This document shows, one piece after another, positions 18,905-19,208 of a stretch of DNA of 35,008 bases. The first letter of the stretch is position 1. The number at the start of each line of letters is the position of its first letter. The stretch is from Alphaproteobacteria bacterium. GTDB lineage: Bacteria > Pseudomonadota > Alphaproteobacteria > Rhizobiales > Devosiaceae. Location: contig JAJRRG010000106.1 of assembly GCA_024279675.1 (NCBI GenBank), positions 1-35,008 on the forward strand, given 5' to 3'. The translations under genes and the position numbers were made by a program. Below the pieces are notes generated by a model. That model did no database searches. It was not told where the DNA came from and saw only the letters and a program-made list of their open reading frames with translations.

Positions 18905-19174
18905 CTAGGGTCAGGACCTGTTAAATTCGTGCAATTCTGTTTGAAAGAGAGTGTTTAGATAAGGTGAAGCGGCAAGAAACAATGTTTATACCTTTTTGAG
19001 CGCCGATTTGCTTTAGATGAATACCCTCTTTCAAACCCTTTGGGCGCGTATATATTTTGTCCCTGAATGCGTTGCAAAACCTTGAATACTATATAGTATC
19101 GTTCGTTTCTGCGCCTGTTCAGAAACAAAATCTATTGGCGCAGAATGGATGAATTTAACAGGTCCTGACCCTAG
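18905..19174. mobile_element. MITE-like non-autonomous element with perfect 24-bp terminal inverted repeats
   Basis: CTAGGGTCAGGACCTGTTAAATTC (18905-18928) and its exact reverse complement GAATTTAACAGGTCCTGACCCTAG (19151-19174); 270 bp, no long ORF contained; internal IRs at 18939-18949/19026-19036, 19086-19099, 19105-19126. Confidence 0.8.
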
Positions 19175-19208
19175 AACTCAAAATGTCATATGTTTTCGTG
19201 GAGGTTTC

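Follow-up and report, generated by a model that had tools for sequence, protein, structure and literature searches.

The window (the whole stretch of DNA that was analysed, 35,008 nt) carries the co-directional genes ntrX and trkA, identified by the NCBIfam models NF051870 (NtrX) and NF007031 (TrkA) respectively. The last base of the ntrX stop codon is 18902, and the first base of trkA is 19209. The gap between them contains a 264-bp element (18908-19171, + strand, oriented as in the family alignment), with one copy of the dinucleotide TA on each side (18906-18907 and 19172-19173). Read from the sequence, exact inverted repeats of 24 nt, target bases included, are present at 18905-18928 and 19151-19174, GTTTGAAAGAG and CTCTTTCAAAC form an inverted pair at 18939-18949 and 19026-19036, and the right-hand part contains a 14-bp palindrome at 19086-19099 together with two competing pairings. 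An earlier note on this DNA had described the perfect repeats and the inner palindromes, all of which are in place. It had also claimed that no transposase is encoded, and indeed no ORF of at least 60 aa lies inside the element, only trkA-side ORFs entering its right end.

The ribosome-binding region of trkA is intact, with GGAGG ahead of 19209. A shift in ntrX-trkA transcriptional coupling, as suggested by the earlier note, is a possible effect of the insertion. An ATG at 19149, provided by the right TIR, is in frame with trkA (MNLTGPDPRTQ...; 19149-19208) and could add an N-terminal extension of 20 residues; the native start with its GGAGG looks unimpaired despite this upstream ATG.

Copies, target site and empty sites

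The host belongs to Hyphomicrobiales, probably to Devosiaceae, as its closest named matches at the trkA neighbourhood are Devosia, Maritalea and Cucumibacter. Its assembly (2.89 Mb in 282 contigs, 94.6% complete) contains at least ten copies of the element, eight of them complete and 94-100% identical and two cut by contig ends. The outer base next to the TA varies among these copies, being C or T before it and G or A after it. The duplicated target is therefore TA; the C and G outside it are target sequence, not part of the element. CTAG, proposed earlier as a possible 4-bp target duplication, is ruled out by the variable outer bases of the host and family copies. TA is found on both sides in 51 of 66 family copies with distinct flanks, and the site reads YTAR in 48 of these 51 and CTAG in 18. 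G002 and G006, both of the same genus, have a single CTAG and no element at the corresponding point of the ntrX-trkA gap, which is also free of the element in the other genomes aligned. The element is thus inserted at a CTAG between ntrX and trkA. Both checks suggested in the earlier note, for further copies and for empty sites, gave a positive answer, and the single copy of conserved position that it had set against mobility was not what we found. By every feature tested the element is a MITE: it is short and without a transposase gene, and it has TIRs, a TA duplication, dispersed copies and empty sites.

Copies lie at or near the ends of contigs C3, C266, C33 and C90 of G000, so the short-read assembly probably broke at the MITE repeat and at the partner IS. 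At the same position just after ntrX, genomes G003 (L237) and G004 (L235) carry TAGGGTCAGCATC and CTAGGGTTGGAGCC, which are possibly the eroded end of an older insertion and possibly due to chance.

Since the element begins with G, insertion into the TA of a stop codon restores a TAG stop, which may explain the presence of the element at gene ends. In the host copies on C245 (L004) and C90 (L005) the stop of the adjoining gene is located at the boundary, its TAG consisting of the target TA and the terminal G. A solitary TIR, TAGGGACAGGACCTGTTAAATTC, occurs at the stop of a prs-like gene (G000:C93:17312-17333; L036, from about 513), where the TAG again combines the target TA with the element's first G and no second end is found nearby. 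In the host copy on C143 (L006), an aspartate-semialdehyde-dehydrogenase-like gene has its 3' end about 20 nt inside the element and takes its last residues from the TIR.

Family members and IS5-family ends

Used as a query, the ntrX-trkA element retrieved relatives in other families of Hyphomicrobiales. A pattern made of the two ends spaced by 258-287 bp, with the interior ignored, matched 23 of 398 Hyphomicrobiales genomes, belonging to 17 of 142 genera and with homologues of 262-276 bp, and the reversed control gave no match. In a class-wide draw the same pattern matched 2 of 386 genomes, namely the host and G717, which belongs to another order. The ntrX-trkA element gave no match as a plasmid query; diverged members used in the same way identified relatives on plasmids of Sphingopyxis, Nitratireductor and Phyllobacterium, the Sphingopyxis member being 264 bp long with its ends at 2355 and 2618 of L308. 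Almost all members measure 262-268 bp, a few 270-278 bp and one 285 bp. The mean identity among homologues is 54%, and each of the members tested has one clear orientation against the family HMM. No match was obtained in a phage collection queried with one diverged member. A complete member is present at L205:8317-8582, on a contig filed as viral (IMG/VR contig IMGVR_UViG_3300027790_000529); this contig, if truly viral, would represent a route of spread for the MITE family. The openly available papers searched on IS427, ISKpn12 and MITEs of Rhizobiales and Alphaproteobacteria yielded no description of the family.

Plasmids searched with the terminal 34 nt yielded several IS5-family elements, including ISKpn12 from Salmonella and related IS5 elements from Agrobacterium and Paracoccus, whose ends read CTA-GGGTCAGGACCCATTGAT. 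The 18-20-bp TIR GGSTCAGGACYYATTRAT is common to the MITE and to ISKpn12-type IS5-family insertion sequences, and insertion sequences with these ends are flanked by CTAG or TTAG. The third base of the end is variable, giving GGGTC or GGCTC, and the variants of MITE and IS agree in six genomes: both carry GGCTC in G096, G149 and G337, and GGGTC in G103, G258 and G717, G149 having GGGTC MITEs as well. The ISKpn12-type elements therefore resemble the MITE in their TIR, in a TA target within YTAR or CTAG and in terminal base variants matched within genomes, but differ from it by a two-frame transposase in about 850 bp and by a dissimilar interior.

The earlier note had called for a transposase gene bounded by the ends of the element. 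Complete insertion sequences that have the two ends and encode a two-frame transposase (PF13340 and PF01609; NF033580, IS5 family) are indeed present at G096:C89 and G103:C422, but the host assembly, in which 282 contigs and 94.6% completeness make the loss of repeats easy, contains no IS5 or IS630 transposase. It is possible that the partner was a repeat lost in the fragmented assembly, and it is also possible that the partner itself was lost. PF13340 gave no match in 6 of 18 further MITE-bearing genomes, and the same-genus genome G002 retains an IS remnant with a GGCTC end. The element at G103:C422:2-1657 (L207), 1.65 kb long and with the same TIRs as the MITE, has a two-frame transposase preceded by an extra ORF of 192 aa that matches no Pfam or NCBIfam model, and its left end recurs on other G103 contigs.

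These data strongly suggest that an ISKpn12-type IS5-family transposase moves the MITE in trans. The partner group is presumably IS427, judging from a target preference for TA in YTAR; the family name IS5 rests on NF033580. Of the earlier proposal of a MITE mobilised in trans, the multiple copies, TIRs, target duplication, empty sites and ends common to an IS5-family IS are observed, and mobilisation itself is what we infer from them. An IS630/Tc1-mariner transposase, as for RUP, would account for the TA target duplication. However, the TIR is borne by IS5-family elements whose transposase is recognised as IS5, and the host genome contains no DDE_3 domain, and we consider this mobiliser extremely unlikely. 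A tyrosine (Y1/REP-type) transposase, suggested only by the look of GGGTCAG, was set aside on the basis of the IS5-family insertion sequences with identical ends.

The element could also have arisen from an IS5-family element by plain deletion, with a meaningless interior. It shares its TIRs and target with the IS, and such a derivative exists in G149:C19 (290123-290541, L219), where about 419 bp retain the two TIRs and part of the transposase gene. This is a MITE-like element of the ordinary kind, which the MITE family of the ntrX-trkA element does not resemble. The family HMM matches the IS loci over their terminal bases only, about 18-27 of them, so the interior of the MITE is not a remnant of the IS. 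As this interior shares nothing with the IS sequences compared and covaries strongly, a plain deletion derivative is very improbable.

The four-way fold

Folded as RNA, the 264 nt of the element reach -112.1 kcal/mol, compared to a mean of -59.5 in 200 dinucleotide shuffles (z -11.6), and the same 264 nt folded as DNA give a z of -11.1. The foldability of the element is far beyond chance. From a structure-blind MAFFT alignment of the family, RNAalifold calculated a consensus with four parts: a TIR stem, a left arm, a CCC-nnn-GGG mini-hairpin and a right arm. In the ntrX-trkA element, all on the + strand, the left TIR with its imperfect inner extension (GGGTCAGGACCTGTTAAATTC...ATTCT, 18908-18938) is the left strand of the basal stem, its outer 18-20 bp being those common to the IS5-family ends, and pairs with the right TIR and its own inner extension (AGAAT...GAATTTAACAGGTCCTGACCC, 19142-19171). 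The left arm (18939-19036) runs from GTTTGAAAGAG to CTCTTTCAAAC and includes an inner hairpin. It is followed by the junction mini-hairpin CCC-TTT-GGG (19036-19044), paired in 100% of cells, and by the right arm (19044-19141), whose apical hairpin is the palindrome ATACTATATAGTAT.

At least one compensatory double change was found in 67 of the 93 pairs. Shuffled controls reach 74.1% paired cells and 95 double-change cells, and controls with a slid partner 34-46% and 59-73; the real structure has 91.8% and 297. Moreover, a phylogeny-aware covariation test similar to R-scape was written for this analysis and applied to 51 sequences, with 100 null alignments that keep the tree and the substitutions of every branch. 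Nine pairs were detected at E<=0.05 and 21 at E<=1, all within the fold. At E<=5, 31 of 32 pairs belonged to the fold, one was adjacent to it and none lay elsewhere. The nine pairs at E<=0.05 are distributed over the left arm (alignment pairs 36-127, 37-126, 39-124, 40-123, 44-119 and 54-109) and the right arm (141-233, 161-212 and 184-189). The inner palindromes are therefore the arms of a conserved fold common to an order-wide family, which the earlier note had missed.

A functional RNA read from one strand is expected to show G-U far more often than A-C on that strand; as a yardstick, three tRNAs, a small sample, gave 5 G-U and 0 A-C. With pairs chosen without strand preference, the family shows 105 G-U and 129 A-C cells, and the + strand is the more stable one in 16 of 33 elements. 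With G-U and A-C exceptions in balance and the two strands equally able to fold, the element is not constrained as an RNA read from one strand would be. In a first count the two arms had appeared to be biased towards opposite strands. When pairs were chosen strand-symmetrically, the left arm lost its bias and the right arm showed a mild A-C excess, so no RNA strand is claimed. The whole element, ends included, belongs to an old family with one four-way-junction fold, kept by compensatory changes that respect both strands equally. Such a strand-equal constraint fits the folding of DNA, selection on RNA averaged over random orientations of insertion, or templated correction of palindromes.

Drift of resident copies and the proposed role of the fold

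Private changes in the host copies fall at paired positions in 20 of 33 cases, close to the expected 66%, and 13 of these 20 break their pair. Resident copies thus change almost regardless of the fold, which argues that the fold is kept for mobility and not for a host function at each site.

If the fold acted as RNA, read-through from a neighbouring promoter on either strand would produce a structured transcript that sets mRNA processing (by RNase III), stability or termination, and selection on the host would keep it. The genes on either side of the element are co-directional here and on the Nitratireductor and Phyllobacterium plasmids, the RNA of both strands is very stable, and random orientation of insertion could expose both strands to such selection and so give strand symmetry. 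Neisseria NEMIS and Yersinia ERIC offer precedents (PMC2229807). Nevertheless, no strand is preferred, resident copies drift nearly freely, the presence of the element is patchy with the relatives examined lacking it at ntrX-trkA, and the Rfam 15 covariance models gave no match at the gathering cut-off for the window and seven relatives. An RNA role is therefore unlikely to be what maintains the fold.

A purely mutational origin of the compensatory changes would dispense with selection. Template switching acts on the DNA of any long palindrome, copying one arm of a quasi-palindrome onto the other, and predicts the equality of G-U and A-C mismatches that we observe. However, it should perfect the arms, yet the same internal loops recur in 33 diverged sequences, as do the mini-hairpin and several unpaired bases. 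Length is constant at 262-268 bp in most members, and the private changes of resident copies are mostly uncorrected. We regard this origin as improbable.

The reading that we favour, and consider highly probable, is a MITE mobilised in trans whose foldability as DNA is kept for its own propagation, this last step being the one that we infer. An ISKpn12-type IS5-family transposase would act on the MITE in trans through the common ends. The fold may act as DNA, a snapped-back strand or a cruciform bringing both ends side by side, and the ends so placed may constitute a duplex available for binding of the transposase. Selection for the ability to move would then keep the fold in those copies that move.

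A more specific form of this mechanism can be compared with integron attC sites, which are DNA kept for its foldability and in which a tyrosine integrase recombines the folded single strand. Like the MITE, attC sites favour foldability over sequence; unlike it, they have no IS-shared TIRs and no TA duplication. The element might move or be copied as a folded DNA strand, its TIR stem offering an ordinary IS5-family transposase a duplex end that is already formed. This is a doubtful proposal, which if true would reveal a DDE-transposase-dependent element under attC-like selection, for shape over sequence, across a bacterial order.

Descriptions of bacterial MITEs usually cover one species at a time and regard them as degraded remains of insertion sequences. 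The present family extends over Hyphomicrobiales (17 genera) and at least two further orders, and it has maintained its length and its four-way fold although its members average 54% identity. This breadth, together with the kept fold and the strand-equal pairing, makes possible a direct test of whether the folding of a MITE is a by-product, a host RNA device or part of its movement. The family profile can also locate unannotated copies in many alphaproteobacterial genomes.

RUP of Streptococcus pneumoniae is similar in being non-coding, with a TA target, TIRs common to an IS and a presumed mobilisation in trans (PMC2229807). It differs in its length of 107 bp, its IS630 type and its restriction to one species, and the same paper reports no order-wide covarying fold for it. 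Correia/NEMIS, ERIC and YPAL are likewise small intergenic elements whose transcripts fold, but they have other sequences and ends, measure 107-168 bp and form one long stem-loop instead of a four-way junction (PMC2229807). The CIR repeats of Caulobacter and Brucella share with the MITE their alphaproteobacterial hosts, two arms with a linker and a conserved structure, whereas they are about 110 bp long, have no TIR and carry GANTC in the arm loop (PMC2229807). By this description they are set apart from a 264-bp element with perfect TIRs, and identity with CIR was rejected on these features. QMITE1 and QMITE2 of Coxiella form long palindromic folds, and QMITE2 has a relative in Bradyrhizobium, but their termini are different and their target duplications are 2-4 or 7-9 bp (PMC5896051); the words "covariation" and "compensatory" are absent from that paper. 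The nearest precedents are thus RUP for the common ends and the TA target, CIR for the two arms in Alphaproteobacteria and QMITE for folded MITEs. The present family is unusual in its taxonomic breadth and its fixed length, and in that the entire element covaries strand-symmetrically.
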